This document shows, piece after piece, positions 10,601-64,000 of a stretch of DNA of 64,000 bases. Source of the stretch: Marchantia polymorpha subsp. ruderalis (Eukaryota; Streptophyta; Marchantiopsida; Marchantiales; Marchantiaceae); assembly GCA_037833965.1 (NCBI GenBank), contig AP031352.1:26662501-26726500 (forward strand), given 5' to 3'. The notes below the pieces were generated by a model. That model did no database searches and was not told the DNA's origin. It was given only the letters and a program-made list of their open reading frames with translations. A program made the translations under genes and the position numbers. How positions within the stretch are numbered: position 1 is the stretch's first letter; every line of letters begins with the position of its first letter.

Positions 10601-13600
10601 TTTCTTGTACCAATAGCGCTTGCAGTTGATCCATTGTTATTTCGCATTGGTCTACAATCATTATGCCTAACTTAGGTGGTCTCAACTCGTTTCCTTGCAT
10701 CATAAGTCCTTGCGGTGGATCATTTATTATTTCATTAGTCTCCGATGGGATTCTCCGGGCCTGCTTGGTAGCCTGCAGATGCGTTATTGTAATGCAAACA
10801 GGCATCCTGTAAGAGCAATTTTCCTTCCCGATTAAGTTATGCAGCTCTCTGGCCCTGCCTGGTAGCCAGCAAATATATCTTGTGATATAACTCCTTCTTT
10901 GAAGTATTATGCACAGAAAACTTTGAACATTTTCTAAGGGGGCCTGACCATTGCGTCTCTAGCAGTACTCACACTTATTTTGGTTTCACTTTTATCCTTT
11001 ATGCTTCTTCTTTCATAATATGTTTTTGTGACTGTTGTCTTGTTATACTTATTAGTTCGTTAGGAATTCCTACCCCACTTGGGGTAATCTCATTTGTAAA
11101 CATCGCATGTCGTTCTCTTGATATCCCTTGGGGATTTATCTGTAGCCCTTCTGGTTGGCCCCATTGACTCCCCGTTTGCTGCCATGTCCTTTCTTGGAAA
11201 ATTCATATAGTTATCCTGTTTTATCACAGCCAATATACCTGCACACGTTTCATGCTTTACGCCTCGTTATGTTCCCTGTTCTAATCACAGCGTTCTACCG
11301 CCGTTTTACTGGCATTGGCACCATGTTGCCCATCACTTTTCTGTTTAGGAAGTTTTTTAGACTGTCTTACGCATTTTTTGATGAATCCTCTTTACCAATC
11401 AAAGTCTCGTCAATGTGGTGGAAAGTATAAAATTTGTTAACAGGCACACTTCGTGGCCGTTATTTTACTAAAAATTTTCTCAGCTGGTTTAGGCAGTAGT
11501 GTTATCTGGATTCTTAGCATAGGTTTAGAGTTTCTTCTCATCTGGTTCCCAAATTTTTATCCTCTTGATGGAGACCTGGTTCAGCTAGGAAAGAATGTCC
11601 TGGCTGTAACTTTGAAACATTCAACTTACCTCATTTATTTGGACAAAGTTTAACAATAGTGAAAATTATTTCTATGTAAGTAGCTCTCTCTCTATCTCTT
11701 CCTTCTCCTTCCCTTGTGACAGGCCAGCCAGGGCGATACCATAGACAAGGGAATTTTGGAGGATCATGGTCTTTGGCTATGATTCCCTTACGTACAGTTT
11801 AAAGGAATAAGCTACTTAAAGACTACAGGACACACTTCTAGAAGAGTTTTATTGTGATATCTACCTTCTGCTTGATCGAGTCTATGAATTCGCGATTGAA
11901 GCACATCAGATTTTGTCTTTTGCTTGCTTTTGTACGCATAAGTTAGATCATTAGTTTCTCACTTAAATCGCTGTTGTTTGATATTTTTCTCTATCAGCAG
12001 CATCAAGTCTTGCAATTCCAATGGGTGATGGCTACGCTATGAATGCGGCAGATCTTGCCGGGCCGGGGACAATGTATCCTCCCGTCTCATCTGGAGGGCT
12101 TACTGGCAGCGGTCTCAACATGAGTTCAAATGGCTCTCAGACACAGAAGATGATCCCTGTCCCCGGTTTGCCGTCGTCCCAGCAAAATACTTCACAGCAA
12201 CATCTGCCGCAGAACAACCAGTCGCAGCAACTGCAGCAGCACTTGCAACGGAGTAGTTTCGCCCAAAATTCTACTGGTTCGAGGACACAGCAGCAGCAGC
12301 AACAGGCCCAAATTCCTAAAAGTCAGGGGATGTTTCAGTCGATGCCTCCTCCAAGCCAATCAACGCAGAAATCACAAAGTGGGAGTATGCCGCAAGAGCA
12401 GTCACAGCAACAGTCACCCACTCAGAAGGTGTCGTTGGCATCGGGTCGTACCCTCTACGATTCCCAGCCTCCATCACCTCAGTTGCAGCGTCAGCAGCCC
12501 GTTGCCCTTCATCAACAGATGAATATGCAAGCTCAACAGCATCAACGTCAAACGTCCTCGCAACAACAACAAAGCTCGAATCACTCCCAGCAAGGTCGTC
12601 AGCAGATACCTACTGCGCAGCAAAAGCTCCCTGACCAGACGCAGCAGCCACAACAGCAGCAGGAGCTGTCTTCTTTCTCTCAGCAACAAACAACCACGAA
12701 GGCACCTTCTCAGGTAACTGATGTTGTGTGGAAGAAGTATCAAAGGATGCTACACGAGGTTGGACGTAGTTTTTCATACATGCTGTATTGTATCACATTG
12801 ATCCACTCCATGGTCTCTTCGAAATCATCTTTGATGAGCTTCCTCTTCGTTGATTGTGACTAGCCTCCAAGCTCAGTTCAACAATCAAGACCACAGCAAC
12901 AAATGCCGCAACGCTCGTTCGCACAAACGCAGCAGCAGCAGCAGCAGCCGCAGCAGCAGAGGCCTCAGGCTCAAAGTCAAGTGTCACAGCAGGAGAGTCA
13001 GCCACAGCCGGCCCCATCTCCTTCAGGGGACCAACAAACTCAACAGTCTCAACCACAGGTGCAACCTGTTGCAGCTCCTGCACAGGCACCACAGCAAGGC
13101 CCTGCAAATGGCTCAACTGCTTCTGCGCAACCAGCACCTCGCACTGGGAGCAATTCAAACGGTGCTCTTCCTGGAGGACAACCCCGCCCTGGACAGATCG
13201 ATCCTCAGCGTGCCCAACAGTATTCAAAGCAGCAACGATGGCTGCTCTTTTTAAGGCATGCTAGTAAGTGTACGGCAGCTGAAGGACAATGCAACATAAG
13301 CCCTCACTGCCACATGGCCCGACAGCTATGGACTCATCTTGGGTCGTGCCGCGACGGGGCTTGTACTTATACACGATGCAACGCTTCTCGATCGCTTCTT
13401 CATCACTACAGGATCTGCAATGATGCGTTCTGTCCTGTGTGTGGACCAGTGAAGACCATGATAAACAAGAGACCTCATCCCAGTTCAACATCGTTGCAAC
13501 TCAGTCAGGGCTCACCAGGCCCCGCGCCTTCTCCTGCAAACAATACCTCCAGTGCTGGAAGTGGACTTTCTGGTGGAAATCTGCCTGCATTGCCATCAGC

Positions 13601-16600
13601 TGTAGATTATGACATCCAAGGACCTCCAAAAAGAGTGAAGACCGAGAGTGGAACGGTCAGTGGGGCCACTAGCATGCAACCGCCTCAACAGCACTCCACA
13701 TCTGGATCTGTTAAGACGCAAGCACCAGCTACGGTTTCCACACAATCTGGTGCTCAGCAGCAAGGATCGAATCGACCAATGTCGTCGGTGAAAAGTGAGA
13801 CTTCAACAGCGGTAAAAGTAGAGAGTTCAACGACTGTGACCAAGATGGAATCTCAGGGAAGTGCCCAGACTATGACTACAACCCACAGGCAAGTAACGGT
13901 CAAAGTAGAGACCGCAAGTCAAGTTAAGTCGGAACCTTCATCAGGAATATCCCAAGCTGCAACGTCTGTTAAGGCCGAGCCTGCTCCCGCACCCCCTCCC
14001 GTTAAGCAAGAGGCTAGTTCTTCCGGCGCTGCAGGTGCTATTATTGTCGCTCCAAATGCGAAACCGGGTAAACCGAAGATTGTTGGCACATCTTTGACAG
14101 AGTTGTTTACGCCGGATCAAATAAGAGAACATATCATCGGTCTTCGACAATGGGTTGGCCAGGTAAGCTCTAAGTGCCCCTTGCAGCATTCCACGTAAGT
14201 GCTGTCGAATGTCAGTGTGAAGCAAATCTGGATCATACGAATTGCAAGGATAAGTGTTTTTTCTAGTCCGATTTAAATTGAATTGAATTTCGTATTATCC
14301 TAATTGCTAGGGTCATGGATTGGAACTGTGCCAGTACTGGTTTGCCAGTAAAGCACACGATGAAATAACTGTCATACAATGAAAAAGTCACAAACTGAAT
14401 AGGAATGAATTTGGACGTGAGAGAACAGCGTATATGAAGGATAAATCAGAAAACTCGTTAAATGTGAGAGTGAAGAAAATACTGGTGTAGTAATTATGGA
14501 AAGTGCGTCAGAAATATTGTGGACGTCTCGCGTCTGTATGTATGAATGAAGTCAAAAGTAAGTCAGAAGTTTAGGTCATTCTATCAGAAATGCGCGAGAA
14601 TATTGTGAACAAGGATAATTCTTAGTGCGTGCCTGCGTGATCTGAGGACCTTAGAGCCGTGGAATAGATTTTCTATTTTCACTAGGGAGGGTGAATACAT
14701 GACGGGAGAGCTATGAAAATGGGCTAGCACTGTACTTAACCTCTTCATTTTTAAACAAGTTGAAATGACAAGCATAGTCGTAGGGAATTGTAGTTGTTTA
14801 TCGTAGGTCGGCTTTCTGACCAATACACTTGGCTATTGTCCCCCAGTAAGAGGCAATTTGACAACTAAGTTACTAAGAAGGTTCCAACTGGTGCATCTAG
14901 GACTTGCGTTAGAAAACTCTCCATTGCTGAGGTAAAATATTTCTCTGTTCTGTCTCAGAGCAAGGCCAAGGCTGAAAAGAATCAAGCTATGGAGCATCAG
15001 ATGAGCGATAATGCTTGCCGATTGTGTGCCGTGGAGAAGCTCACTTTTGAGCCGCCTCCCATATATTGTACCTCTTGTGGTGCTCGAATCAAACGTAACG
15101 CTCCATTCTACACCGCTGGTTCTGGTGAAACAAGGCACTACTTCTGTATACCATGTTACAATGATTTACGAAGTGATGTGGTCGAGATGGACGGAATGTC
15201 CTACTTGAAGACCAAGTTGGAAAAGAGGAAAAATGATGAGGAGACCGAGGAAGCGGTAGGAGGATGCCTCTCTCATTGGATTGTCTGTTTTGTGTTTTTT
15301 AGCCTTTTGACCCTTTGGGTCCCACGGGCTATTTACCATTTACCATTTACCATATCATTGCAGATTTCATTTCCCAGTCTCGAATAAAATCTGTTTTTTT
15401 ATTGAGGAAATCATTGAGCTCTAACGATGTTCTTTGCTTTTCTCGATCGTGCTTCTTCGTAACCGAAGGTCTTTTCTGCTTTGTCCTGCAGTGGGTTCAA
15501 TGCGACAAATGCAATCAATGGAACCATCAGGTGTGTGCTCTTTTTAACGGCCGGAGGAACGAAGGTGGAGAAGCAGAATACACGTGTCCTCAATGTTGTA
15601 TGCTGGAGATCGAGAGGGGTGAAAGGAAGCCACTTCTTTCCTCGGCAGTTTTGGGAGCTAAGGATTTACCTAAAACGTTTCTTAGTGATCATTTGGAACA
15701 AAGATTGGCGCGGAAACTGAGACAAGAAAGAATAGACCGTGCGCGCGCACTTGGGAAAAATGTCGATGAGGTCTTGGGAGCAGATTCATTGGTCATTAGA
15801 GTGGTCTCTAATGTCGATAAGAAGCTAGAGGTAAAGGCTCGATTTCTGGAAATATTCCAGGAGGAGTACTACCCGACCGAGTTTCCCTACAAGTCCAAGG
15901 TACACTCATGGTCTCAAAGTTTGCCGGTTTGGACCTGATTTATTAAGGTGTTACTTTACAATTTTGTGATGCAGTGAATCCTTGGCAAGCATGAGTACAA
16001 CGTGTACGACATACTTTGGTGGCGAATCAAACCCTTTTCTGCCTTAAGAGAAAGATTTCGTTGGGATGAAGTGAGTCTTGATTTGGAGTTCTTGTTTTTC
16101 CCAGGTGGTCCTACTTTTCCAAAAGATAGAAGGCGTGGAAGTATGCTTATTTGGAATGTATGTCCAAGAGTTTGGGGTCGAATGTGCTCCCCCAAATCAA
16201 CGGCGAGTGTATCTATCATACCTGGACTCTGTGAAGTACTTCAGGCCTGATGTGAGAACTTCTGGCAACGAGGCCCTTCGTACTTATGTTTACCATGAAA
16301 TCTTGGTAAGTTCTCAAAGTCTTCTTTCTTCTTGCTATTCTCACCGAGGTCATGATTTCGTTCAGATCCAGTAAGCCATTCCCCACACTCGTTACGGAGT
16401 CTAATAAGCTTCTAATTTGCATCGCTAGACTAGAGTTGTAGATGACCATTTTCGTGTGGATGTGGTTGTTTTGCAGATTGCTTACCTTGATTACTGCAAG
16501 CTACGTGGATTTAGTAGCTGCTACATTTGGGCTTGTCCGCCCCTTAAAGGCGAGGACTACATTCTGTATTGTCATCCAGAGATACAAAAGACACCGAAGT

Positions 16601-19417
16601 CTGATAAGCTGCGTGATTGGTAAGCTGATGATTTACTTAACTTGATGTGGGAACACAGACTGAGTATCGCGTGCTGCTAGTCACAATGTCGTCATCCAAC
16701 TATAGATCTCTACGACTCGCATAAAGCATCGTACTAGCTTGTTAGGACTATGCGTTCAGTACTGTTGATACTGTCAAGGGGCCAAGTTGTTTACTGAAAT
16801 CTTGCTCATCCACTCCAATTCAAATGGAGCTGCTAGAGTATTCACATTTGACGGGGAGACTCTAATATTTTGTTCCTTTATTGTTAACAGGTACTTGACA
16901 ATGTTGAAAAAGGCGACTGCCGATGGGATTGTTGCAGAAGTGACCAATCTCTATGACCATTTTTTCCAGTCAACTGGAGAATGTCGAACTAGAGTTACAG
17001 CTGCTCGTCTACCGTATTTTGATGGAGACTACTGGCCTGGAGCTGCGGAGGATATGATAGTTCAGCTTCAGCAAGAGGAGGAGGATGGACTTAAGCTACA
17101 GAAGAAGGGTAAAAATAAGAAAACTGCAACCAAGCGTGCTTCTAAAGCAGCTGCTCAAGCAGAACTTGCAAGCAATGCTTCTAAAGACGTTCAGCTTATG
17201 TATAAGGTCTGTCTTCACCGTACAACCCCGCAACCTCTGACACATGTCGCATCGTGCTACATTAAAAGTGACGTTGTGTCTTGAAAACTTAGCCTAAAAC
17301 TTTCACTGATATTTAGAGGGCATAGGTGAGGAAAGGTTGCGATTATCGTACAAGCTTCGTTCAAGATAAAATATCATCTATCCAGGACAGAGTTGGTTGA
17401 TACAAGCGCGTCGGTTGGGCTATTGCGCTGGTTCAAGAATTTCGTCCCAAAAGATTTTAAAATTTATACCTGTAAGCGTATGGTTTGTTCCCATCTACAA
17501 ATTTGGTTTCTAACGTCAATGATTTTTTGCTTTTCCAGCTTGGTGAGTCAATTTTGCCAATGAAGGAGGATTTTATTATGGTGCACTTGCACTTTTGTTG
17601 TACTCATTGCCGTAACTTCATCATTAGCGGCTGGCGATGGACATGCAAGCAATGCAAGAGCTTTAATCTATGTGATAGGTGTGTACGACTGTGCATCTTA
17701 TTCTGTATTAAAGACGGTTCATACTAGTTTGATTTAAATTCGGATACGCTCCTCCTTGTGATCAGTATCATCTTATCTGACCCACTCTCTCGTGATTTCA
17801 GTTTTTATCGCCTATTAAACACCTGGTCTTCTGCTGTGCATAAGTCCTCTAACATGGCTTTGGTGACAGGTGTCATGATTCTGAACAGAAACGTGAAGAA
17901 AGGGACCGACATCCCACCACGAGTAAAGAGGCTCATCAACTCACACCTGTAAGAATTTGGACAAAAATCAAAAGTTATTATCACTTCAGGCATCTTAGCA
18001 TCCTATCTTTCTTTCTTTCTGTAGCGTCGGGTGTCGGAACTCTTGATCTATCTACGCACTCTTTTCGTTTTATTTGGGATCATTGTTGTTAACTGAATCA
18101 AGATTTCCAACTGTACCAATTGCAGATCGAGGTAGAAAAGGTTCCCGCAGATACGAAAGACAAAGATGAATTCATGGAGAGTGAATTCTTCGACACTCGG
18201 CAAGCTTTCTTGAGTTTGTGTCAAGGGAATCATTATCAGTATGATACTTTACGACGAGCTAAGCACTCCTCGATGATGGTCCTTTACCATCTCCACAATC
18301 CTACAGCACCTGCTTTTGTTATTACGTGCAACCAATGCCATCGTGATATCGAAACAGGTCAAGGGTGGAGGTGCGAAACCTGTCCTGACTTCGATTTGTG
18401 TAACAACTGTAAGGACGTTGTTAAACATAATCACAAGCTGACACCACATCCTTCTGCGTCTGAGCGGAATGCTCAGAACAAGGAAGCCAGGCAGCAACGT
18501 GTCCTACAGGTCAGCTCTCGGTTTCTATTCTTCGTAAACTGTTTTTATAGAATACTGACTGTCACCTGTTTTTCTTGCAATGAGTGGTTCTCTTTAACCT
18601 GCAATAAAAAAATCTGCAAAAAATCTGCAAATGGTATTTCAGGGTAAAAATTCATGTCGATGATTTCAGTACTTAGTTTCCTCTTGAACATGACGAGGAT
18701 TTTAATAGATTTTGTGTTTAAAATATCTTTGCTGATCTTTCCGCCCTTGATTCTGATTATTCGACCTTGTCACAACAGCTGCGAAAGATGCTGGATTTGC
18801 TCGTGCATGCGTCTCAGTGCGGCGTACCTAGTTGCGCTTATCCGAAGTGTCGTAGCGTTAAAGGTCTATTCAGGCACGGGATGATGTGTAAAGTACGCGC
18901 ATCAGGTGGTTGCGCTCTATGCAAGAGAATGTGGTATCTGCTCCAACTTCATGCCCGTGCTTGCAAGGAATCCGAGTGCCGCGTTCCTCGTTGCAAGTAA
19001 GAACAGAAATCTATTACCGATCTGTGATAAATATTCGCCGCCCTTTGACCTTCAAGTTTATGGTGCCTTGTTTAGGAGAAGATGTTTTTATGGTAAATAT
19101 TGAATTTTACACAACTGGGGCTTAATTTCTCGTACTCTTTGGAGATATGCAGTTAAGACTCGATTCCGCGGGTGCTTAAATAACATGTTGAAAACAACAT
19201 GTTGAATTAATTTTTCTGAAAACAGTTTTGTCCCTATATGTAGGGTTTAGGGTTCAACCCAAGTTTCGGGGTTGACTCACATTTAATTTTCTTATGTTAC
19301 AGGGATTTGAAGGAGCATGTTAGGAGATCAAATCAACAGCAGGAGTCCCGTCGCAGAGCTGCAGTAATGGAGATGATGAGACAGCGGGCTGCAGAAGCTG
19401 CGGGTGGTACAAGTTAA
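4698..19417 (+). CDS. HAC: HAC-type p300/CBP histone acetyltransferase (15 coding exons)
   Basis: This nuclear enzyme acetylates lysines on histones and other proteins and acts as a transcription co-activator. My exon model, all phases agreeing: 4698-4858, 5163-5274, 9222-10230, 11998-12713, 12864-14162, 14959-15255, 15492-15899, 16105-16305, 16477-16619, 16891-17206, 17539-17678, 17870-17948, 18126-18509, 18779-18996, 19303-19417; 1865 residues, against about 1700 in Arabidopsis HAC1. Domain order: N-terminal conserved segment ([14 protein letters not shown]), MIPTPG repeats (about 130-330), Gln-rich region, TAZ1 zinc finger (about 788-868), Cys-rich/PHD region (about 1110-1240), catalytic core (to about 1550) with [20 protein letters not shown] and DWYLTML, two ZZ fingers (about 1565-1625 and 1690-1735), TAZ2 (about 1756-1828), basic tail. 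The Trp of YIWACPP and the Tyr of DWYLTML match catalytic Trp1436 and Tyr1467 of human p300. The start is supported by resemblance of [15 protein letters not shown] to the HAC1 N-terminus and the upstream stop; a leader exon may precede it. Confidence 0.95.
6650..6830. repeat. Diverged direct repeat inside HAC intron 2
   Basis: Two segments share TGGTAGGAYTCGAG at the left and AATGACGCCGCCCAA at the right, one at about 6663-6712 and one at about 6772-6825. Spacing is about 115 bases. No coding meaning is seen. Confidence 0.6.
8845..8877. repeat. Perfect 12-bp inverted repeat with 9-base loop
   Basis: AGTGCGGTATTG is followed after nine bases by its exact reverse complement CAATACCGCACT. The stem is more GC-rich than the surrounding intron. 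It lies 345 bases upstream of HAC exon 3. Confidence 0.8.
9346..9850 (+). repeat. M-[IV]-P-T-P-G coding repeats in HAC exon 3
   Basis: About nine copies of a motif of the form [NTQA]-M-[IVM]-P-T-P-G, plus degenerate ones (LMPGPG, MMPPSG), are spaced 7 to 30 residues apart by Gly/Ser/Asn/Met-rich linkers. Related HAC proteins carry only one or a few MIPTPG motifs. The DNA copies differ at synonymous sites (for example ATTCCAACTCCT against ATCCCAACTCCG), so the array is not a fresh slippage product. Confidence 0.8.
10231..11997 (+). other. HAC intron 3 (1.8 kb)
   Basis: Phase-1 intron with a canonical GTAAGT donor. It contains a degenerate doubled segment near 10585-10740 (TTGGTCTGAAGTAG... 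against GTGGTCTCAACTCG..., about 95 bases apart). Near 10761 and 10855 there is a second pair, CTGCTTGGTAGCCTGCAGA and CTGCCTGGTAGCCAGCAAA. No embedded gene is recognised. Confidence 0.65.
11995..12000 (+). promoter_or_regulatory. NAGNAG tandem 3' splice site of HAC exon 4
   Basis: The acceptor reads CAGCAG. Splicing after the first or the second AG keeps the frame and adds or removes a single Ala (Pro-Ala-Ser-Ser against Pro-Ser-Ser). Tandem NAGNAG acceptors are known to be used alternatively in plants and animals. Confidence 0.75.
14163..14958 (+). other. HAC intron 5
   Basis: Intron between the Gln-rich/TAZ1 exon and the exon beginning Ser-Lys-Ala-Lys-Ala-Glu-Lys. Donor GTAAGC, acceptor GTCTCAG. 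I see nothing else in it. Confidence 0.7.
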
Positions 19418-38470: not shown

Positions 38471-39740
38471 TTGATGAATCAACATTCACTTCTTAGCAAT
38501 GTACCACTCTGAATGTCACGTGCTGGATAAAATTCTAATTGATACCTGAAATTCTGCCGTAGTCTGCTCGTCTCGTCATCCGAATCTTCTTGACGATAAC
38601 TGTGAACGTGGACAAAACCAGAATAGTCACCGATCAACTCCTCATCTTCGCTTCTCTTCAACTCACTCTAAGAGACCTTCTTAGCAATGTTCGAGAATTC
38701 AGGCGGTGTTTCATCCCACAGCGTAGAGGCTGTCTTCTCATCGCACCTAAAGTCCATTTCGACGATCAGTGGGTCAAGTAGAGTTCCGAAATCTCAACTC
38801 GAGAGGTTTACAGTAAATGCCCCGAACTCCAAGCGCTGCGGAAGCAGCTCGTTCGGAGTCAAGCAGGAGACAAGGCGAACATGATGAACATGCGAACCAC
38901 GTGAATCACGAGGGACAAGCCACCGGGACCACAACTGCGACGTGGTAGGACTCGGTCGCCGAAACTCGTCCATGGTTCTCGTCATGGATGCGTCCAGATC
39001 CTTTGCAGTAGTGCCCGCCGACGTTACTGTGCTGTCAAGGTCGGACCCTGTCCTACCTTTACAGCACAGTAACGTCGCATCCAAATGTCGAAGATCAGAA
39101 TATTCACAAATCGGTCAATGGGAATTATCCTTCGCTGCGGACACCGACCGGTCGCCGCTAGCGCAGTTGGCCGCGACGGCGACCGCGAACGTGGTGAGCG
39201 GTGGGTGCATGGAAGAATCCCCAACCCGGTGAGGGGAGCGTGGAGTCGAGAAAGAAGGGCTGGAGAACGTGGACTTTCGGGCCGCAGGCGATCGTACCCA
39301 TGAGAGTACAACGAGTGAGTACGGTGGAGCGGTTGTCCGCTGGACGCATGCAGGACGTGGACCGGGCGAGTAGTACAGAAGTCGGCAATTGTACGAGCTG
39401 ATTGTCCTGCAGCGGCACCCATCGACGCGATTCATATGACGCGAATTGCGATCGATGGTGGCCACATTGAGCAGAGCTGGATGCTGCACCATCCCATCGC
39501 TGCAGCGGCCCGACCCTCGACAGCCTCGAGACTCAGCGCAGGACGACGTGATGCTGCTGATGCTGCTGCCGTCGGTCGCCATCGAGACCAGCGCCCGCGC
39601 TTTCTCGAGGTGTTATATGGTCTGACAGTCAGGGGCGATTCTCGTGCGGCGGCAGGAAGGAATCAGTTTGTCGAGGACGGTGAGGCAGCGAGCGGCGAGC
39701 GGCAAGAGGGCAGGACATTAGGGTCGAGTCGGTTTTACAG
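38471..39740 (+). promoter_or_regulatory. GC-rich upstream region of the ZIP gene
   Basis: About 1.2 kb of GC-rich DNA precedes the ZIP start. Many overlapping open frames on both strands (up to 155 codons) look like composition artefacts without domains. The segment holds a long perfect hairpin (39019-39077) and probably the ZIP promoter and leader. No TATA box is evident. Confidence 0.4.
39019..39077. repeat. Perfect 17-bp-arm hairpin, 59 bases in total
   Basis: CGACGTTACTGTGCTGT (39019-39035) has its exact reverse complement at 39061-39077. Inside, AAGGT pairs with ACCTT and GGA with TCC, separated by single mismatches, leaving a five-base CCCTG loop, so nearly the whole segment can fold. 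It lies 664 bases upstream of the ZIP start codon. It could be a microRNA-like precursor, an RNA structure in a leader, or the remnant of a small transposon. Confidence 0.85.
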
Positions 39741-41429
39741 ATGGGTTTCTCGATGAGGATGGTTCTCGCGTCGGCTTTGTGGAGTTTGGTGCTGATTTCC
39801 GCCTTGGTTGGGCCCGCGGCCGCGCACGGAGGGAATGGGGACGGGCACGAGGATGAGAATCTGGATTTACGGGCCAAGGATTTGGTTTTGGTGAAGGTTT
39901 ATTGTTTGATCATCGTGTTTTTTGCCACGTTCATTCCTGGAGTGTCGCCGTACTTTTTCCGCTGGAACCAGGCATTTTTGGTTCTGGGAATTCAGTTCGC
40001 TGGAGGGATTTTTCTGGCCACGGCCATGCTTCACTTTCTCAGCGACGCCAATGAGACTTTCAAGGACCTTACGTCCAAGCCGTATCCCTTCGCTTTCATG
40101 CTCGCCTGCGTCGGGTACTTGATCACCAATTTTGCAGATGTTTTGATACAATTCGTCTACGCTCGTCAACCTGTAACCAATCACGCAACGGATATCGAAT
40201 GCACCCCAGGTATGGAATCATTAATGCCTTCGGATTTTACGGGAAGCAAACTTTTCTTCTATCGCGTCAGAAGCCATCAACTCACACCTACTGGCATGCC
40301 TCTGACAAAATTTCTCGTTGACCAAATCCAGCGTGAGGATCACCACCTCGCGTATGAAATCATGAGAGCATGTTGTTTGATTACCTTCTCTAGCCCAGTC
40401 ATTGGCACTTTTCCATTCCTCAGGAGGTAAACCTTGCAAACCTGTCGGCTCGGACGGAAAGAGCTGCTGCGACGCTAGTCGCAATGGTGCAGAATGCAAG
40501 GTGCCATCTCTGCACAATCTTTTGAGTCATTTCTTTCAAAGCATGTGCGTACATGCGCTACCAACTTAATTGTGGTCATCCTACTATTCGTGTCTGTGAA
40601 CATGATCCGAACGATTTTTAAGTGGAGTGCATGATATTTTGAGTCTCGAAGCTCAGAAACGTAACGAAATCGTATGCTCTTGTTCTGGTGGCAGTGTCCA
40701 GATGAAGTCCCATATACCAAAGATGCGGGGAGTCTGGTCAAGGCAACCTTGATTCCGAAAGTTTCCTTCGGAGACGCAGTGCTGTTGGTCTTTGCTTTAT
40801 GCTTCCACTCCATTTTTGAAGGCATTGCTATTGGTGTAGCAGGTGCGCCTCTTGCTCAGTTTCCTTGATTGGTACTACGCGTGCTTGTAAGTTTCAGCTG
40901 TATATCGCAAAAACTAGATCTGATACTATCAGGGGATTAGAGGCAGAAACGATCGTGCCGGAAGTAAAGCCTGAATCGTTTTCCGCTATCACCATACATC
41001 TAGCTGTCTTGACAGAGTGGATCATTACCTTGTGCAGCGACGACAAAGGATGCTTGGAGATCACTCTGGACAATTACGCTTCACAAAGTTTTTGCAGCTA
41101 TCGCCATGGGCATTGCGTTGCTAAGAATTATCCCAGACAGGCCGTTGTGGTCTTGTGCGGCTTACTCTTTCGCTTTCGCCATCTCAAGTCCTATCGGCGT
41201 GGCAATCGGCATCCTAATCGACCAAACGTCGCAAGGAAATACTGCAGATTGGATCTATGCTGTCTCCATGGGTTTTGCAGCAGGAGTGTTTATTTACGTG
41301 GCCATCAACCATCTCCTCGCAAAGGGTTACACGCCTCCCTGTAAAATTGGAGTAGATCAACCATTCTACAAATTTTTGTTCGTTACAGTGGGGGTCGCCG
41401 TCATGTCCGTAGTAATGATCTGGGATTAA
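39741..41429 (+). CDS. ZIP-family zinc/iron transporter (3 exons)
   Basis: ZIP proteins move Zn2+, Fe2+ or Mn2+ into the cytosol. Exons 39741-40209, 40703-40843 and 41038-41429 join in phase to 333 residues, normal for plant ZIPs. A signal-peptide-like leader (about 1-29, ending [11 protein letters not shown]) is followed by a short acidic/His segment and eight membrane spans. Signature residues are present: [12 protein letters not shown] in span 4 and [13 protein letters not shown] in span 5, whose His and Glu residues line the metal site. The loop between spans 3 and 4 is short and lacks the His-rich repeat of many ZIPs, with only [10 protein letters not shown] and PYTKDAG, which points to the ZIP2/ZIP11-like group (tentative). 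The first intron's 3' site is CCAG at 40699-40702; using the earlier GCAG would break the frame. AATAAA lies at about 41514. Substrate metal is unknown. Confidence 0.93.
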
Positions 41430-46245: not shown

Positions 46246-47907
46246 CTAAGGCAGCTGCTGAAGAGCGAGAATGGCATGCGAAGGTTCATCGAGGGGAGGA
46301 GGAGGAGGAGGAGGAGAAGGAGGAGGACGGGGAAGGCACGGAGTTTGAGATTCGGACACAAAAGAGTCCGCAGGACTGGCCAGATCCGCGTGGGAGGAGT
46401 CTGTCAGGTGCTGGGCCCGCAGAGCTTCGAGAATCCAATCGGTTCTCAGCACGACAGTGACGGTGAGAATGGCGCAGGTGAGCACGGCTGCCAGGAGCCC
46501 GAGCCACAGGCCCAGCAGGCCCAATCTGCACGAGAAAGCCAAATAGATTCCGAGCGGAATGCCGACCAGATAAAACGCGCCGAGATTGGCGTACGCCCCC
46601 GTCGAAGGACGAGCACTGCCTCGCAGAACACCGCAGCAGACCGTCTGCGGGAAGTTGCCGAATTCACAGAGGCCCATGATCGGGAGCAGCCTGGCCACCC
46701 CGAGCAGAATGTCCTTGTCCGACGTGAAGAGCTTGCCCCAAATCTTCCTCGCGCAGATGAGCCAGGTCGCGCCCAAGCACGCGAGCGCGACGCTCACGCT
46801 CAGCGCCGCCAGAGAAGCATGGTACGCAGCTAATGGAGAATTGGCCCCGAGCTCGTTGCCGACACGAGTCGAAACGCACGAGCTCAGAGCCACTTGCAAT
46901 GCGTAGCACACGGTGTCGCCATTGAGAACGATGGCCATGATGGCCACAGCTTTGTGCGCGTCTGGGAGGAGGCCCGTCAGAAGCGTCATGGTTTCATAGC
47001 ACCACCACTCCAAGCATGTCATGAGGCACGCAGGCCCTGCGAGTTTTATGAACGGGCCCCAATCTTGCAAGCTCGCCCTCGACCACCCGGGCCAGGATCG
47101 TCGATGAATTCCCGTCTGGTGGATGTAGATGACGAGCATGATAATCAGATTGAGGTCGGTAAGGGCTGAGGCCAAAGCTGTTCCGGAAGCGCCCAGTTTC
47201 AGTCCGAACACGAGGAAGAAATTCAGGGGAATGTGCAGAGACATGGCCAGGGCGGAGCACAGCATCATGGGCTTCGTGATGCACTGCGACCGGAGATAGA
47301 TTCGCAGCGGGCTCAGCACGGCAGTGGCCACCAAATCTGGCAGCAGGTAGATGAGATATTGCTTCGCCATGGCTGCGATGTCGCGGTCTTGGCCGAACCA
47401 GAGCAGGACTTTCTCCACGTTCAGCCAAGCGAACGAGACGGGGATGCAGGCGAGCAGCATGAGCAGGATGCCTCGTTGAAGGGCGAGGCCGATGAGCTTG
47501 TGGCGCTTGGCGCCGAAGGCCTGGCAACAGAGGGGCTCCATTCCGCCGGACAGACCCATGAGGATGGAGAATCCCGTGACATTTGCGAAGGTCAGGGCCA
47601 TCGTTCCTCCTGCAAGCTCCAACCCTCCCAGGTGGCCCAAGAACATGGTGGATATGATGAATCTCGCGAACCACATTATGTTCATGGCTGCGATCGGACC
47701 TCCGATCTTCTTCTGCTTGCTGATCTCCGACAGAATTTGCTTGATGGACGGCCATGCCTGCAGGGCATGGTGCAACTCATTTAGGGTTTCCTCCTCCTCC
47801 TCGTCTCGCCCCACTTTGTCGTCCGAAGTCGCGGGCCATTTTGTGTGCTTCTTGAATGGGATTCTCTCATCCGCCTCGGGGTCCGACATGTCCGTGTCCA
47901 CATCCAT
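46246..47907 (-). CDS. MATE-family efflux carrier, DTX49-51-like, intronless
   Basis: MATE carriers export organic compounds in exchange for H+ or Na+. From the first in-frame ATG (47907) the protein has 553 residues; the open frame extends upstream to a GTG at 47949, so a longer start or a leader exon is possible. About 12 membrane spans lie between residues 70 and 490. Family marks include a GHLGGLELAGGTMALTFANV-type stretch, SGGMEPLCCQAFGA, LEWWCYE, STRVGNELGA, GLCEFGNFPQT and CGVLRGSARP, matching plant DTX49/50/51 proteins, some of which act at late endosomal or Golgi membranes in hormone or iron handling. Substrate here is unknown. The N-terminus is acidic, with a Glu run encoded by GAG repeats. 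The tail carries a proline run (PPPSPPPPPPP) encoded by GGA-type repeats on the plus strand near 46290-46330. The gene is GC-rich compared with its flanks. Confidence 0.93.
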   Translation of the reverse strand: MDVDTDMSDPEADERIPFKKHTKWPATSDDKVGRDEEEEETLNELHHALQAWPSIKQILSEISKQKKIGGPIAAMNIMWFARFIISTMFLGHLGGLELAGGTMALTFANVTGFSILMGLSGGMEPLCCQAFGAKRHKLIGLALQRGILLMLLACIPVSFAWLNVEKVLLWFGQDRDIAAMAKQYLIYLLPDLVATAVLSPLRIYLRSQCITKPMMLCSALAMSLHIPLNFFLVFGLKLGASGTALASALTDLNLIIMLVIYIHQTGIHRRSWPGWSRASLQDWGPFIKLAGPACLMTCLEWWCYETMTLLTGLLPDAHKAVAIMAIVLNGDTVCYALQVALSSCVSTRVGNELGANSPLAAYHASLAALSVSVALACLGATWLICARKIWGKLFTSDKDILLGVARLLPIMGLCEFGNFPQTVCCGVLRGSARPSTGAYANLGAFYLVGIPLGIYLAFSCRLGLLGLWLGLLAAVLTCAILTVTVVLRTDWILEALRAQHLTDSSHADLASPADSFVSESQTPCLPRPPPSPPPPPPPLDEPSHAILALQQLP

Positions 47908-50900
47908 GAAATTGACGCTTCCCTCCCCTGACTTGCAGGCGGCGTCCACTGCCGCTCGACCATTCCACTGACTACCACTACTGCACCAACAAAATCCTTG
48001 AGATCACATGCCCGGAAATCTTAGCAGGTGTCACCCAGATCCCCGCATAGTCAAGCTCGCAATTTGCATGCTTCCGTCTGGAGAGAAGGAAAGGAGAATT
48101 TACACGGACGACATGTCTCTCTCGTACACAAACCAGCCATTGCCACGATGTGGGCTGCGCATTGTGCTGGCAGAGCCATAAACTTCTGCTGTGGATCTTC
48201 CCATTAAGGCAAGCATCGCCAAATGCGAGCACGCGAGGACGACGCTGGACAATAGTTCAAATGCAGAAGGGTTTTCCTCAGCGCAGAAGGGATGCGATGA
48301 CCACTTCAATACAGGCGCAGATAGATTGTGAAGATGTACAATGCGCTTGATGGCTAATGCTCGATGGGAGTTTGTAGGACGAATTCACCATGAAGGAAAT
48401 CAGAGCAAGAGAGGAGAGACCAGGAAAGGTTACCCGTGCAAGTCTAAGAACCGGTTGGCGTCGCTGTCAGACACATCCCAGTGACAGAAAAACGTTCTCT
48501 CGCCGCAGTCAGCCATGGCTCATGAGCGAGGGCGTCGTGGCAATTAAAGAGGGATGAAGGTTGACGTCTGGTCTTGATGAATCTCGTGGATCCCCGACCA
48601 TCCCACCAATTGGCCAAAAGTTCACGTATGACAGTTCTCACTTCCGTGGAGCACCGCCCTTCCTGCAGCACTCTGGCAGATGGCATGACCCCAATTCAAT
48701 GTTTCAGGCCTTTTGATATCTCTTTCCGAAAGCGATCCGATCACACCGTGGCCTAATCCTAATCCGAATCCGAATCCTCTCAGCAACAGGCGCAGACGTC
48801 CGGGGAGACCAGAATGCCTCTCAGGTCCTACAGACTTGCACCCACTGCAGAGCTCGGATGCATGAGTACGATGAAATTCTCGAGCAAATGAAGCCACGAA
48901 AGAACAACCGCCCGCCGGCGACTGTTGGAAGGCCGCAGCAACGCAACCAGAAATCTATCTGTCAGTTACTCTCACTAACCACTCCCGTGACTCGATTCAT
49001 TGACTCGGCTTCGATTCTGTTATTCAGGGTACAGATCCTCCAGCTCGATCTCCATCGGAGTGCCAGCGATTTCATGCGCACTGGAGAAACTGCTGGTCGA
49101 GAATGACGGCAATGACGGCAGACACCCGGTGAGACATTTGAGGACATTCGCAGATTTCTGTCTGCTGCCTCAAAGGAGGCATCGAAGGCCCGAAGGACCG
49201 TCGGAGCAAAGGGCAGCACAGCGACCGTTGGGCACCCGGCAGGCAGGGCTACGAAGAGGGGATTTGGGCAGAGCAGAGCTTGTCTCCTCAGAACTTCGTC
49301 GTTGCGGCGTTTGCAAAGCCGACATTTGGGGAGTGACCGATGCGTCATCGAAGACCATAATGATCTATCATGCATGTTCCTAGGCGTTAATCCAAATGGT
49401 TGCAAAATGGTACGCCACTGCGAACATAAACTTGCCAAGAAACAATCAGAGAAACATAACTGCCTCAAATCTGGCTACGGTCGAACCTCAGATGTGCAAT
49501 TATTCCGCAGAGTAGTGTGCGCACATGGATCGTAGAAGGTCGTGCTTATAGTGAAGTTCCTATTTTACTCGTGGCTCAGATTCAACCTGAGATCCGAAAA
49601 GCGGACAAGCTGCTCGCCAGCTTATCCTTGGCACCATCAAGAATGATCGAGCACGCCACTGCATGAACTTTGGACTTTAACAAGCATTACTGCAAGTAGA
49701 CCAACAGCACTCAAAGTGCCGCATCTACGCACAACATTCATGTTTGTGGCCATGATATTCTAATAGTATCCCAAAATTCGGAAGGTGCTTTGAGTATAAT
49801 GTGGAAAGGGGACAAGAAATACGTGGGAGGTATCTATGAAAACTTTCGAGTATGAAACCCGAGAAACCTAGTCTCCAGTACTATTTACTAATACGTAGAT
49901 GATCAAATGAGTTATAAAATTGCTTAAAGTTGGATAGCAATAGCAAGTGATCTCTATAAAGCAATAGATTCCGGAAATAAAAATCCTAACGTCTCGTCTT
50001 GTAGGATAAGCTTTTGTACAATCTGAAAAAAGCATGTCGAAATTCACATCCAGAACCTATAGCTTGTGTATAAGCTCTAAGATTACAATAAGAAGTAGAT
50101 AAGATATTTGCAAAGTTCTATACAAAGGCTGATGTAATCACCCTCTTTTCCCGTTTTAAGAAAGGAGTAATTATCATTCTTAACCTATTTTACATGTAAC
50201 ATATATATCCATCACGTTTGTAATATCCAATATAACACTCTAAACTTCACTACACATATGCTGAGATTCTATCATTACAACCCGTATTTTAGGAAAATAT
50301 ATAATCACAAACAATCATAAGCATTCAAACAATCAAAAGCTTGCGAGAATCTTTGTACATACATTGGAGCATTTGAAAGTTGTAAAAGATTATGTAGTAA
50401 ACAATCGTAAGTTGAAGTCCCTATATGTTGCCAAAGTCTTTTTTGATCCAATTTTCGTTCACTAGACTATAATATAATAAAGTGTACATTTGGCTCCATG
50501 TTACATAAAAACAACTTGAGATAAACACAACTAACGTCTCTCAACATTAATTGATTATATGTCTTTGTTTATTTATTTAAATACATATGTATGCTTCAAC
50601 GAATCCATCCTCATGCATTTGAGTATGTCATCCATGCATTTTTTTCCCACTGAAGTATTTAGTGTAACAAATTAGAGTTGTCTAGATTTCTCTACATAGA
50701 TCCAAGTTGATAGACGCTGCTGAAGACTAGTAGCTTATGTGTCATAATTGCACATGATTATGCCAAAGCATATGCGAATTGTACAACTTCATCGGATGAA
50801 ATAGAGTCATTAGCATTTGTAGATATCGCCACATGCTCTAGCAATATTATGCTCCAACTGCTCTATTCGAGGTATCATGACTAAAATTGGTGTTTTACGT

Positions 50901-57902: not shown

Positions 57903-58761
57903 AAGTTAAACGGGTAATAAAATGAGTTCTACCCCTACCGTTACCACGTTGGTCGCGCTTTACTTATACCTTTACCTCTACTTTACCCATACATCGGGTA
58001 ATTACCCAATAAAATTTAAAATTACACTTTACCTTTACTTTAAGTGTTAAACGGGTAATTGTCCAATAAAAATAAAAAATACTTTTTCTCTTTAATTTAT
58101 CCGTTAATCAGATAATTACCCAATAAAAATAAAAAATACATTTTACCTATATTTATTCATCTACGTTCTTGAATCACCAAATGGTTGCATTATGATAAGA
58201 GTTTCTGATGACAACTTCTGAACATCAATACAAAGATTATCAGTTTGCCAATAATAAGTGAAAAGGTTATTTTATTATCTAAATAATATAAATAAGATGT
58301 GTAAATATATTTTTTCTAATTATTAAAAATCTTTCGATATAAAACATGAAAAACTGTCTGAAGGATGTGAATCCTTCATCATTTTCTATTCTTAACCTAC
58401 TCTTTTAGTCAAAATATGGAAAGCTTGAGCACCATTAGACAATTGTATTATTTATGTCGATAAATTAACAATCTTAGCATTTCTTACAACTGGAAGACAT
58501 GTCAACGCTTTGCTCTGATATAGGATTATACACGTATTTATAATTATTATTCTAGAAGCCATAAGTTTTGTTATATACAAAAAATCTCACAAATAAATAC
58601 TGCCAACTTAAGAGATAATTACTCGGGTAATGGGTAAATAAATGGGCATTACCTTTACTCACCCTCTCCGTCACCCATTGAAAATCTTCCTACCTTTACC
58701 CCTAACTTTTACCTTTTACCCTCGAGTAAAAGGTATTTTAAGTTACCTTGCCGAGGCCTAG
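57879..58761. mobile_element. Non-autonomous DNA transposon with 26-bp terminal inverted repeats (hAT-like)
   Basis: The left end starts CTAGGCCTTGGCAAGGTAAC and the right end, reverse-complemented, starts CTAGGCCTCGGCAAGGTAAC; the match continues for about 26 bases with two differences. TGGTA flanks both sides (57873-57877 and 58762-58766), a possible short target duplication. The 883-bp body is AT-rich, with many GGGTAATTACCC-like and AACGGGTAA motifs near the ends, like the subterminal repeats of plant hAT elements. No transposase is present. Confidence 0.75.
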
Positions 58762-60289: not shown

Positions 60290-63200
60290 TTAGTCGCAGC
60301 CATCTAAGTCCTCTGACTCAGGTCTTATTCCCTCCTCCGCAGATTCATTCTTTTCTATCTTATCCAATTGCCCCGAGATATCTGTGTTGTCTTTCTTGTC
60401 ATCGACTTGTCTTGAGGGTACTTCGTCTTTAGAGTCATCTGAACCTCGCAAACAATCTTTCTTCTCCTTCTCTTCAGAACTCTTCGAAGTTTTCTTCTCC
60501 GTTTTATCTTCGACAGCTTTTCCTGTAATCTTTCTTTCCTTCCTTTCGTCCCCATTTTTCGTGCCATCTTTCCTGTCCTTCTCTTCCAATGCTTTTGATG
60601 CATTGTTTTTATCGGGCTTATCGTCTGGTCCCTTCGACGCCACCTTCTTCTCTTTCTTATCGTCAGAAGATTTAGGCCCGTCTTTCTTCTCTGCGGGCCT
60701 AGACCCATCCCTCTTCTCCTTCCTGTCACCTTTCGGTCCATCCTTCTTGTTGGCTTTCTCACTGGAACCACGGAGTCCATCTACTTTCGCTCTGGGATGG
60801 TCCTTCCTCCTCTTCTCATCTGAAGCTTTCGTAACATCCTTTTTATCCCGCTTCTCATCTAAGGACTTCATTGCATCCTTTTTGTCCTTCTTCTCTTCTC
60901 CTGTCCTACCTGCATCCTTCCTTTCGCTTCTCTCGTCCGAGAATTTAGAGCTATCCTTCTTTTCTCTCTTGTCGTCCGCAAGTCTCTGACCACCCCTCTT
61001 TTCCTTTTTATCCTCCATCACTTTGGACCCGTCTTTTCTTTCTTTCTTATCATCCTCAGCTTTTGAATTGTCCCTCTTCAACTTCTTTTCCTCTGGCTCG
61101 ACTTTTGTGCTAACCTTAGGCCCGTCATACATTGACATAAAGAAGTTACTCTGATTTTTCTGCAAGAATCTGCCAACAACACAGTGAAGGAGTTAACATC
61201 ATCCAGTGTAAACCGTTCAAGGAAATTTACATATAGAGAAACAACAGTTTCTCCGAAACGGTTTCACTTACTTCAGGAAATCTTGCAACCTTTGTTGCAG
61301 CTGGTTCAAAGCTTCTTCTTCCATATTTATGAAGACCAAAAGCTCAGGTAGTTTCACTGGAGATACAGAATGGTAAAGTCAATGTCCGTACAGTGTAGTG
61401 AGATGAAATAAAACTGAGAAGAGGTGATCCGAGATATTCTTAGAGATACCTATCCGTAACCACAACAAGCGACTTCCTTCAAGAAACTGGCCTCGCCAAT
61501 CCAGTTAGATATATATGATAGAAGGGCACCTACAACCAAGATTATTAATTACTTATCTCTGAAATCTAAGAGATTCTTACTGCACTCAACAGGACATGCA
61601 AACTTCTCAACGATCACCACCAACTCGTACCTCTTCGGTACGCAGCTCTTTTTCATACGATACCACTGTTAGTGAATTCTTTAAAACCAAGGAGTTAAGT
61701 CCGACAATGAGAAAAAGTTGACAATAACAATACCAAATAATCTGAGTAGATGTTCAGCTCCGTATATTAGCGATGGACGTTTAGAGCTGCCCTCTGAGAC
61801 AGCTTCAGCATACTGAGCACGTTCTTGCTTGTATAACAGCATGGCCGGTAATGCTCTATCGAAATAAGCTTGAAGACCATCTAACACTTCACCAATTGAA
61901 TCTTCATCCCTGCACATAGACCTACCCGGATCAGCTTTTATCTCAGTGTGACGTTCGCAGTCTATGAGCGGCCCAATCCATAACCTTGATAGAATCAAGC
62001 GACTCTAAGGTCAAGGGCACGGCCATCTGAGAGGAATATCCAGCTAAGGGAAGAATCACTAAGTCACACCAACTCATAGCCATATTCAGATTATACGATA
62101 CCACTGCTAGTGAATTCTTTAAAACCAAGGAGTGAAGTCCGACAATGAGAAAGAGTTGACAAAAACAATACCAAATAATCTGAGTAGATGTACCAATTCA
62201 TGGCCACATATCATATCACGATTTGACAATCTCCAATATAATCTAGGTGATATGTTACACAAGAAATTTTACTCATTTTTTTTTCATAAATATAGGAAAT
62301 ATGCAGGACAAATATAAGCCAAAGGCAAGAAAAAATCACTCACGTGCCTTCCCGTTTGGTCTTCAGCTCACGATACGTTTTCAGTATTTCATCCACGCTA
62401 GGCTTTCGGGGAAGCTTGATAGACTGAAACGTCATCGCGTCGCAAATTATCAAAAAATAACCATAACCGATGCTACTGCCTCTCCATCAACACCAGATAA
62501 TCTTTATGACAAAAAATACATGCGCAACTCAAGATAAATAAAGGTGGACATATATATTATCCAGGTTTCAAAGAAGTGAAGTTGAAATTGTGCATGCAGA
62601 TCCACATCACGGTCATAAAACATATGACATACCTTTCCAGACTGGATGAGCTCCCAATCGTCCACGAGCTGTTTCTTCAGAACAGGTGGTAGAGGAATTT
62701 TCATCACTTGATCTGGCTCATCCGCATCCTTCTCCTGGATGGCATTTCACAAAGCGTGTTGAATAAAGCTGAAAGAAGTCTCATAATGGTTGTGTGAAAC
62801 TTTGACACTAAGTTATAAAGACACCAAAGAATTAGCTGCTAGCTCTGAAGAATTGACGCTTAGTTCAAAAAAGAATCCCCACAAATGATTCAAGAAAAAA
62901 AAGTGGCAGCAGTATTCACAAATTCCAACCTCTGAGACAGTTGATTCCGATTTGCGCTTCTTCCCTTTCGGCACTGTTCCACAATTCCAGCAGAGATAAT
63001 TCAGTTTAGTCCCTTGAGCAAAATGCCCTCGCAGATATCCTTGATGATAGAAGACCAACAAAAGATGGAGTACCCCGGGCCGCACAGGAAAAGACGTACT
63101 TCCTCTGAGCCACAGAAGAAGAAAAGCAAAGCATAAAATGACGATCCACCCAAATATAAAAAGAAGATCAAATGACCGATTCCTTCATAAATAGTGAATG

Positions 63201-63720
63201 GATGGAACTCTGACCAGAATTAGTTTTGCCACCTTCCTTCTCCCCCTTAGACTCTGTAGAGAGGCAGAAAGACTTAAGTTCCACGTTGAAGACTCCGAAG
63301 AACGCTCGAATATGTCTCACCAATGTCATCTCTATTTTGAACTACCCTCGGAAAAAACATGACAAACCTAGGCCAAACGCAGCTTGAAGAACAGAGCGCA
63401 TCTACTTCTTTCAAAAGACTGGAACAAAAACTGGCCACAGAAATTCACATAGATCACATAGTACTACATGGAAACTAATACTAGATGGAACACCAATTAT
63501 TGGATAAATCTTGGAAAAACTACAAACACAATACACCAATTCTCCAATTACAAATAAATCAGTAGATCATACCGGTGAGTGTCTTCTGTTTTCCTTGAGA
63601 AACGCGACCCTTAGATTGTTTGTCAACATTCTGGTCCTTGAACAACTTCTTCTGTCTCTCGAGATTCTCATCTGACAATTCCATGAGACGATTTGTACCC
63701 ACCCACTCATCCCAGCTATT
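60290..63720 (-). CDS. MRG: MRG15/MRG-domain chromatin protein with long Lys-rich tail (5' part outside window)
   Basis: MRG15-type proteins bind H3K36-methylated nucleosomes with a chromodomain and recruit acetyltransferase or deacetylase complexes with the MRG domain. Minus-strand exons, in transcript order: 63720-63573 (5' edge tentative), 63253-63215, 62973-62930, 62734-62633, 62423-62344, 61909-61734, 61356-61272, 61169-60290; all phases agree. The first visible exon has the chromodomain end (NSWDEWVGTNRLMELSDENL). A basic linker (VPKGKKRKSES) follows, then the MRG domain from MKIPLPPVLKKQLVDDWELI, through LPRKPSVDEIL, QERAQYAE, YGAEHLLRLFVKLPELL, to FLQKNQSNFFM. The last exon then continues for about 280 residues of a 13-residue Lys/Asp/Glu repeat, absent from ordinary MRG15, which ends near the MRG domain. 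The first chromodomain exons lie right of 64000 or were not recognised in 63.7-64.0 kb. Confidence 0.92.
60430..61035 (-). repeat. 39-bp coding minisatellite (13-residue repeat) in the MRG tail
   Basis: Successive units follow the pattern D-[GAS]-x-[KR]-x-x-[DE]-[DE]-K-[KR]-[ED]-[KR]-[KR], for example DGSKVMEDKKEKR, GGQRLADDKREKK, DSSKFSDERSERK, DAGRTGEEKKDKK, DAMKSLDEKRDKK. There are roughly 14-16 units, some shortened by one to four residues near the middle. The DNA is strongly strand-biased (TCTTTCTTCTC on the plus strand). Confidence 0.85.
61655..62193. repeat. 100-bp duplication copying an exon end and its 5' splice site
   Basis: About 61655-61755 and 62094-62193 are near-identical (GAATTCTTTAAAACCAAGGA at 61674 and 62112, offset 438). 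Seen on the minus strand, the left copy is the end of the MRG-domain exon (...CTCAGATTATTTG), its donor and part of the next intron. The right copy places a second such exon end and donor inside the preceding intron (62343-61910). Confidence 0.8.
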
Positions 63721-64000
63721 CTTCATTGACAGGTCCAACATGCACAATCAACCATGAAGGATTAGAGCCTGGTCTCCTGCTTACGATTGAATACTATAAA
63801 TTCGGCGCTCCATTCTATTTCAAAACGACGTTAATTCATGATTGATTGAACATTAACAACTGGATACAACAGTGCCTACAAGAATCGCTTATCTGTGCTG
63901 AGAAAGTTCCCAATGGACCAGGCAGGGAAGATGGGTCTAAAGAGCACTTGTCTAACACACTCCTACAGTCTTTCCATCCATCAGAGGGCTCAAAGGGATA

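Follow-up and report, generated by a model that had tools for sequence, protein, structure and literature searches.

The locus raises the question of why a chromatin protein should carry, directly behind its MRG domain, a long tail of densely mixed positive and negative charges, and whether such a tail has a role or merely reflects repeat growth. MRG proteins connect H3K36 methylation to histone acetylation (PMC7047200), and a gene of this family lies near the end of the window, by which we mean the whole 64,000-nucleotide stretch of Marchantia polymorpha subsp. ruderalis DNA that was analysed. Papers are cited here by PubMed Central identifier and for excerpts of their text.

A predicted MRG gene with a charged tail

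Spliced translation of the minus strand yields a gene of eight exons and seven GT/AG introns that join in a single frame between 63720 and 60290 (Table 1). The exon borders were set by eye on the window sequence, so that this is a predicted gene model, and those of the linker exons are less certain than the others because their donors, GTCAGA and GTTGGA, are weak. Within the window the predicted product has 517 residues and an open 5′ end, with earlier exons past position 64000, and it runs from the end of a chromodomain-like region through an intact MRG domain into a tail of 276 residues. The MRG domain occupies residues 68-239 of the spliced product (Pfam PF05712, E 2e-50, 171.2 bits with a cut-off of 22.8), and human MRG15 aligns to residues 2-237 in a search of PDB sequences (E 8.8e-38). 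Judged by these matches, the gene is predicted to encode an MRG-family chromatin protein (MRG15/Eaf3/MRG1/2). The sequence-only reading had spoken of an MRG15-type reader: the family assignment stands, whereas the status of a methyl-lysine reader is inferred from family membership, since the larger part of the chromodomain falls outside the window and the match to the MSL3_chromo-like Pfam profile covers positions 50-76 of 78 and stays under the family cut-off.

The last exon (61169-60290) follows the acceptor ...TTGGCAG/ATTCTTGCAG and closes with the stop TAA at 60292-60290. Joined to exon 7 (61356-61272) it encodes ...LQDFLKFLQKNQSNFFMSMYDG, the end of the MRG domain, and then 276 residues without a stop; the tail begins after ...FFMSMYDG, inside this exon. 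In-frame joining of the exons, together with the PF05712 match, thereby bears out the initial observation that the last exon completes the MRG domain and continues into a charged tail in the same exon and frame. Searches for relatives of the MRG domain confirmed none of three pattern matches in viral contigs and none of 43 in prokaryotic contigs, a result of little weight given the type of collection; a scan for bacterial promoters and terminators near the gene end returned none of either and has no bearing on a eukaryote.

The tail might be absent from the main protein if alternative splicing or an early transcript end removed it, and three GT sites in the last exon (after 61115, 60910 and 60730) do agree with the donor consensus in 7 of 9 positions, where the real donors of the gene match at 4-8. 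Plant introns require U-rich sequence, and the tail, with 13% T against 35.5-40.1% in the seven introns, does not resemble one; in 60-base windows the values overlap, the last exon reaching up to 32% and the introns going down to 20%. Removal is also opposed by the coding frame and pattern that the repeat has retained, and we consider it very improbable.

Table 1. Features of the predicted MRG gene and its tail (positions in the window)
Feature	Position	Strand	Evidence
Exon, C-terminal part of chromodomain-like region (NSWDEWVGTNRLMEL...)	63573..63720	-	Pfam sub-cut-off match; aligned to human MRG15 SWDEWV; splice sites AG/GT
Linker exon, weak donor GTCAGA	63215..63253	-	Phase-consistent splicing
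Linker exon, basic KGKKRK stretch, weak donor GTTGGA	62930..62973	-	Splice joining
Exon, MRG domain start	62633..62734	-	Splicing, Pfam, MRG15 alignment
Exon, MRG domain	62344..62423	-	Splicing, Pfam, MRG15 alignment
Exon, MRG domain (...YGAEHLLRLF)	61734..61909	-	Splicing, Pfam, MRG15 alignment
Exon, MRG domain (VKLPELLVFINMEEEALNQLQQRLQDFLK)	61272..61356	-	Splicing, Pfam, MRG15 alignment
Last exon start, MRG domain end (FLQKNQSNFFMSMYDG)	61121..61169	-	Splicing, Pfam
276-residue mixed-charge tail and stop TAA (60292-60290)	60290..61120	-	Splicing, translation
Seven contiguous 13-residue units (tail residues 10-100)	60821..61093	-	Iterative fit, profile, lag test
Nine further degenerate, irregularly spaced units (tail residues 101-249)	60374..60820	-	Profile score 44.0 against a maximum of 12.8 in 200 shuffles
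Acidic C-terminal end (tail residues 226-276), which takes in all of the weak last unit and the end of the one before it	60293..60445	-	NCPR -0.216

A degenerate 13-residue repeat

The 276 residues of the tail include 65 K, 22 R, 43 D, 34 E, 25 S, 19 G and a single aromatic residue, which leaves a net charge of +10. Identity at a lag of 13 residues amounts to 0.266 against 0.119 in shuffles (z 7.7, and z 9.0 with a reduced alphabet; 0 of 2000 shuffles as high in either case), and the period is echoed at lags 12, 26 and 39. The consensus of the unit is [DE][DE]KKEKKD[GA]SK-x-x. An iterative fit at a fixed length of 13 found 14 units with a score of 177, compared with at most 120 in 200 shuffles; the copy number of this fit does not separate from chance, as shuffles reach 14 units too. 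A second approach was a profile that admits unit lengths of 9-15 residues, was trained on the first seven contiguous 13-mers only and was then run on the untrained rest of the tail. There it found nine more units with a score of 44.0 (200 shuffles: mean 4.3, maximum 12.8, with a mean of 2.8 units and no more than 7), so that 16 units in total cover 201 of the 276 residues. These nine later units have lengths of 10-13 residues and an irregular spacing and are more degenerate than the first seven, the weakest scoring 2.5, 4.8 and 5.2 against 13-15. Since both the profile score and the number of units exceed the shuffles, 16 is a fair count even with a weakest score of 2.5. The 14-16 copies of a Lys/Asp/Glu 13-mer and the length of about 280 residues first given for the tail agree with the fixed-length count, the flexible count and the translated length.

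The repeat fades as the tail proceeds: at lag 13, the match in charge declines from 0.86 (residues 1-105) over 0.54 (106-230) to 0.33 (231-276), the final stretch of about 46 residues shows no 13-residue period (z -0.6), and the last 51 residues are acidic (Table 1). At the DNA level the repeat is weak, with Tandem Repeats Finder giving 2.3 copies at 77% match (60812-60899). A source for the tail elsewhere in the 64-kb window was sought by tblastn, which matched only the tail itself at E values up to 1. Pfam holds no matching family up to E 10. The PDB sequences likewise gave no match to the tail up to E 10, which is uninformative because an artificial KKE/KKD string went unmatched as well and the search may be blind to such composition. 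The last exon probably gained the tail long ago, as a 39-base unit multiplied in tandem. A recent minisatellite was also considered, and is ruled out by the saturation of synonymous sites (pS 0.83-0.90).

Apparent coding constraint on the repeat

No stop interrupts the gene's own frame over the tail, against 8 and 28 stops in the other sense frames; on the antisense strand the three frames have 8, 1 and 8. An open frame alone is weak evidence for coding here, since K/D/E codons by themselves leave one antisense frame nearly open. Comparison of the 14 units gave a pN of 0.397 and a pS of 0.828, and the resulting pN/pS of 0.479 lies below a register-shuffled null of 0.875 (minimum 0.808, n = 200). 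For the seven contiguous units the ratio is 0.392 against a null of 0.811 (minimum 0.645, n = 200). The other two sense frames yielded ratios of 1.47 and 0.79 for the 14 units and of 1.98 and 0.64 for the seven, the last value (0.644) being at the bottom of the null range. The 14 units were picked and aligned by a protein profile, which biases pN downward; constraint is therefore tested more fairly by the seven contiguous units and by the lag test, which needs no alignment. By codon position, the excess of identity at lag 13 has z values of 6.1, 4.5 and 3.2 for the first, second and third position. Identical codons at this lag are slightly over-represented (40 of 70 against 31.6 expected, p 0.024), so that shared descent accounts for part of the similarity among units. 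In every one of the 13 columns, 10-14 of the 14 profile-chosen units have kept the most frequent charge class, with synonymous sites at the saturated level given above. Counted per site, synonymous differences between the units exceed non-synonymous ones; the repeat is therefore old, and the pattern of its amino acids looks constrained.

Charge patterning and disorder of the tail

The whole tail has an FCR of 0.594 and an NCPR of +0.036. Its kappa of 0.051 is lower than in any of 200 shuffles (mean 0.126, sd 0.024, minimum 0.064), and the repeat part (NCPR +0.066) has a kappa of 0.035, a value that none of 500 shuffles within 13-residue blocks attained (minimum 0.044). As a control of the code, (EK)25 gave 0.0009 and E25K25 gave 1.0, as the definition of kappa in PMC7503639 requires for the two extremes. 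The tail is thus a strong polyampholyte whose charges are more evenly mixed than its composition predicts. Its low kappa could be a by-product of tandem growth alone, since 48% of 3000 sequences made by ordering the consensus 13-mer at random and repeating it in tandem have a kappa of 0.0355 or less.

This last result bears on the possibility that the tail has no function and is simply tolerated at the C-terminus, as an old expansion of minisatellite type whose frame stayed open because the product is soluble and harmless. C-termini tolerate repeat growth, and the decay of the units towards the 3′ end and the low kappa obtainable from tandem growth would both be expected of such an expansion. 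What speaks against idleness is that the charge class has been kept column by column while synonymous sites became saturated, at pN/pS ratios of 0.39-0.48. On balance we regard an idle tail as unlikely.

The tail is consistent with a disordered chain. Its mean hydropathy (0.263) falls under the Uversky boundary of 0.426, and AlphaFold2, run on the tail without an alignment, predicted no secondary structure at a mean pLDDT of 50.2, which is weak evidence for disorder. Charge patterning and disorder had been suggested as informative predictions when the tail was first noticed, and the values of kappa, hydropathy and pLDDT now provide both. A stiff single alpha-helix of the ER/K type, serving as a rigid spacer, would suit the high content of K and E/D. 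However, opposite charges at i,i+4 (53) barely outnumber like charges (45), every one of the 14 units contains G, S or P, and the low-confidence AlphaFold2 model has no helix. The i,i+4 balance and the G, S or P in every unit led us to reject the helix as scarcely credible.

A further alternative is that the tail acts like the KKE/D lysine-rich domains of the nucleolar proteins Cbf5, Nop56, Nop58 and Rpa34, in which lysine doublets contact RNA while the domains self-associate and help to bring the protein close to nascent RNA or into the nucleolus. The consensus unit does contain KKE-KKD, and the tail has 11 KK[ED] motifs against 4.3 in shuffles (reached by 1 of 1000) and 21 [KR][KR][ED] motifs against 7.7 (reached by 0 of 1000). 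PMC11528048 describes KKE/D tails as strong polyampholytes that lie at protein ends, are disordered and have their lysine doublets separated mostly by E/D; such tails self-interact in yeast two-hybrid assays and can send GFP to the nucleolus. The Marchantia tail departs from them in that its kappa of 0.05 is outside the 0.1-0.4 given for Cbf5 IDRs and self-association (PMC11528048), its NCPR is only +0.036 to +0.066, and KK doublets taken by themselves are no more frequent than in shuffles (14 against 15.1). Moreover, it is blocky and not alternating mixed-charge domains that reach the nucleolus in PMC9324279. Net charge is the stronger difference from KKE/D domains than kappa, because a pure (KKE)16 string also has a low kappa (0.017). 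We therefore think a KKE/D-like function improbable.

Proposed role as a spacer or bristle

The reading that we prefer, with a confidence that falls a little short of even, is that the tail serves as an extended, weakly basic and hydrophilic bristle or spacer that makes weak basic contacts. The chain, its opposite charges lying near one another, would be swollen and soluble and would neither fold nor condense by itself. It would project from the MRG domain as a long hydrophilic bristle or spacer, which could maintain the solubility of the protein and keep neighbouring complexes apart. Through its slightly basic repeat part the chain may engage DNA, RNA or histone tails weakly and in a salt-sensitive way, and the acidic C-terminal end would restrict such contacts. 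MRG domains are known to form homodimers (PMC5084153). Chains of low kappa are described as expanded and with little inter-chain attraction, the neurofilament side arm, with a kappa of 0.074, acts as a polymer brush, and a Ddx4 permutant with a kappa of 0.053 is cited as having lost phase separation (PMC7503639).

The same literature also contains points against this spacer. Electrical neutrality permits polyampholyte collapse (PMC7503639), which counts against a swollen chain as the tail is near neutral. Furthermore, alternating Arg/Asp chains go to nuclear speckles and blocky ones to the nucleolus (PMC9324279); chains that gather in speckles are not inert, and this counts against an inert spacer. 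Net positive charge increases the condensation of both alternating and blocky chains (PMC9324279). With peptides alone, droplets formed only for the fully segregated D12R12 and short alternating peptides gave none; in favour of the spacer, (D4R4)3, which has a kappa of 0.046 by the code used here, showed no phase separation (PMC9324279).

The sequence-only reading had proposed condensation and nucleolar targeting, besides nucleosome binding, as possible functions of the tail. Condensation and nucleolar targeting are both weakened by a kappa below that of every shuffle and by an NCPR so close to zero. Alternating Arg/Asp chains went to speckles and not to the nucleolus in PMC9324279, and phase separation was lacking in the short alternating peptides and in the low-kappa Ddx4 permutant. 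We favour the spacer over both, since in the excerpts cited they are tied to charge blocks or to strong net positive charge, which are absent here. In its most specific form, which we hold to be doubtful, a land-plant MRG protein would carry a selected polyampholyte bristle, with a 13-residue charge code kept while synonymous sites became saturated, and this extended, non-sticky chain would set the spacing and exchange of MRG complexes on transcribed chromatin.

A natural MRG protein with a long and evenly mixed tail would offer a clean test of low-kappa polyampholyte tails on chromatin. Deletion of the tail, or re-ordering of its charges at constant composition, would separate roles in spacing, solubility and condensation. 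Should the tail turn out to be idle or restricted to one species, it would represent ordinary repeat growth.

Other features of the window

The MRG gene also contains a 99-base direct repeat (61655-61753 and 62093-62191, 96% identical), in which the final 20 bases of exon 61909-61734 and 79 bases of the next intron, donor included, have been copied into the preceding intron. This duplication looks recent and could mislead splicing. About 2 kb downstream of the MRG stop lies a 57-base tandem repeat of 3.4 copies (57966-58155), and two blocks of 55-base tandem repeats with similar units are found at 336-980 (4.4 copies at 336-579 and 3.6 at 784-980). On the plus strand, 9189-18647 contains exons of a probable CBP/p300-type acetyltransferase gene (TAZ finger, E 6.5e-18; ZZ finger, E 3.6e-8), upstream of which runs a reading frame rich in MIPTPG repeats, and 39684-40430 holds an exon of a ZIP-type zinc transporter (E 9.2e-18). 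A MATE transporter is encoded on the minus strand by one long open frame (46246-48003, E 2.8e-65), and other open frames of more than 150 residues lie there on both strands. Rfam gave no match at the gathering threshold over the whole 64-kb window.

Comparison with known systems

Proteins of the MRG type are marked, beyond the MRG domain, by an aromatic-cage chromodomain at the N terminus and by their binding to H3K36me3 and to HAT/HDAC complexes as partners. With the MRG family (Arabidopsis MRG1/MRG2, rice MRG701/702, human MRG15 and yeast Eaf3) the predicted protein shares a chromodomain-like end, a linker and a complete MRG domain. The difference lies in what follows: the three longest MRG chains in the PDB, which may have been trimmed for deposition, stop 11-27 residues past the end of the alignment (human, 362 aa with the match ending at 347; S. 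pombe, 337 and 326; S. cerevisiae, 401 and 374), whereas the Marchantia protein continues for about 280 residues. In this small sample, known MRG proteins thus end soon after the MRG domain, as had been assumed when the tail was first described. Among the matches listed from open-licence PubMed Central text, no comparable tail on an MRG protein is reported, and the excerpts of PMC5084153, PMC7047200 and PMC4161306 make no mention of one.

The KKE/D domains of snoRNP and Pol I proteins resemble the tail in their terminal position, disorder, strongly polyampholytic composition and lysine doublets set apart by E/D, and they self-associate, coacervate with RNA and can serve as nucleolar signals (PMC11528048). 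They belong to proteins of rRNA production or modification, such as the snoRNP protein Cbf5 with its higher kappa, whereas the Marchantia tail is near neutral, evenly mixed and attached to the MRG domain of a chromatin protein. Closer in taxonomy are the KED-rich repeat proteins published from moss, liverwort and hornwort (PMC9994729), which also have direct repeats rich in K, E and D, for example an 11-residue unit repeated nine times in Marchantia; charged direct repeats are thus a known bryophyte habit. These bryophyte proteins consist of 67.9-79.1% K+E+D, compared with 142 of 276 residues (51%) in the MRG tail, which also falls outside the published plant KED range of 55.8-79.1% among the table rows listed (PMC9994729). 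Unlike them, the tail is joined to an MRG domain and every unit of it includes small residues (mostly G, A and S), and its 16 units are degenerate whereas the bryophyte KED repeats are highly identical. KED proteins of the vascular-plant type have, in addition, a conserved domain of 19 residues at the C-terminus.

Two further systems share its physical character. The side arm of the neurofilament heavy chain is likewise highly charged, near neutral and low in kappa (0.074, with an FCR of 0.429; PMC7503639), but it is cytoskeletal, and we claim no homology. In the Arg-rich mixed-charge domains of nuclear speckle proteins (PMC9324279) opposite charges also lie close together, while the MRG tail is rich in lysine, at about three K to each R. 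The KEKE motif appears, among the matches listed and judging by title, for a dehydrin, calsequestrin 2 and fungal PR-1-like genes. Mixed-charge repeat tails are therefore already known, and it is the MRG domain as their partner that looks new within the matches listed.
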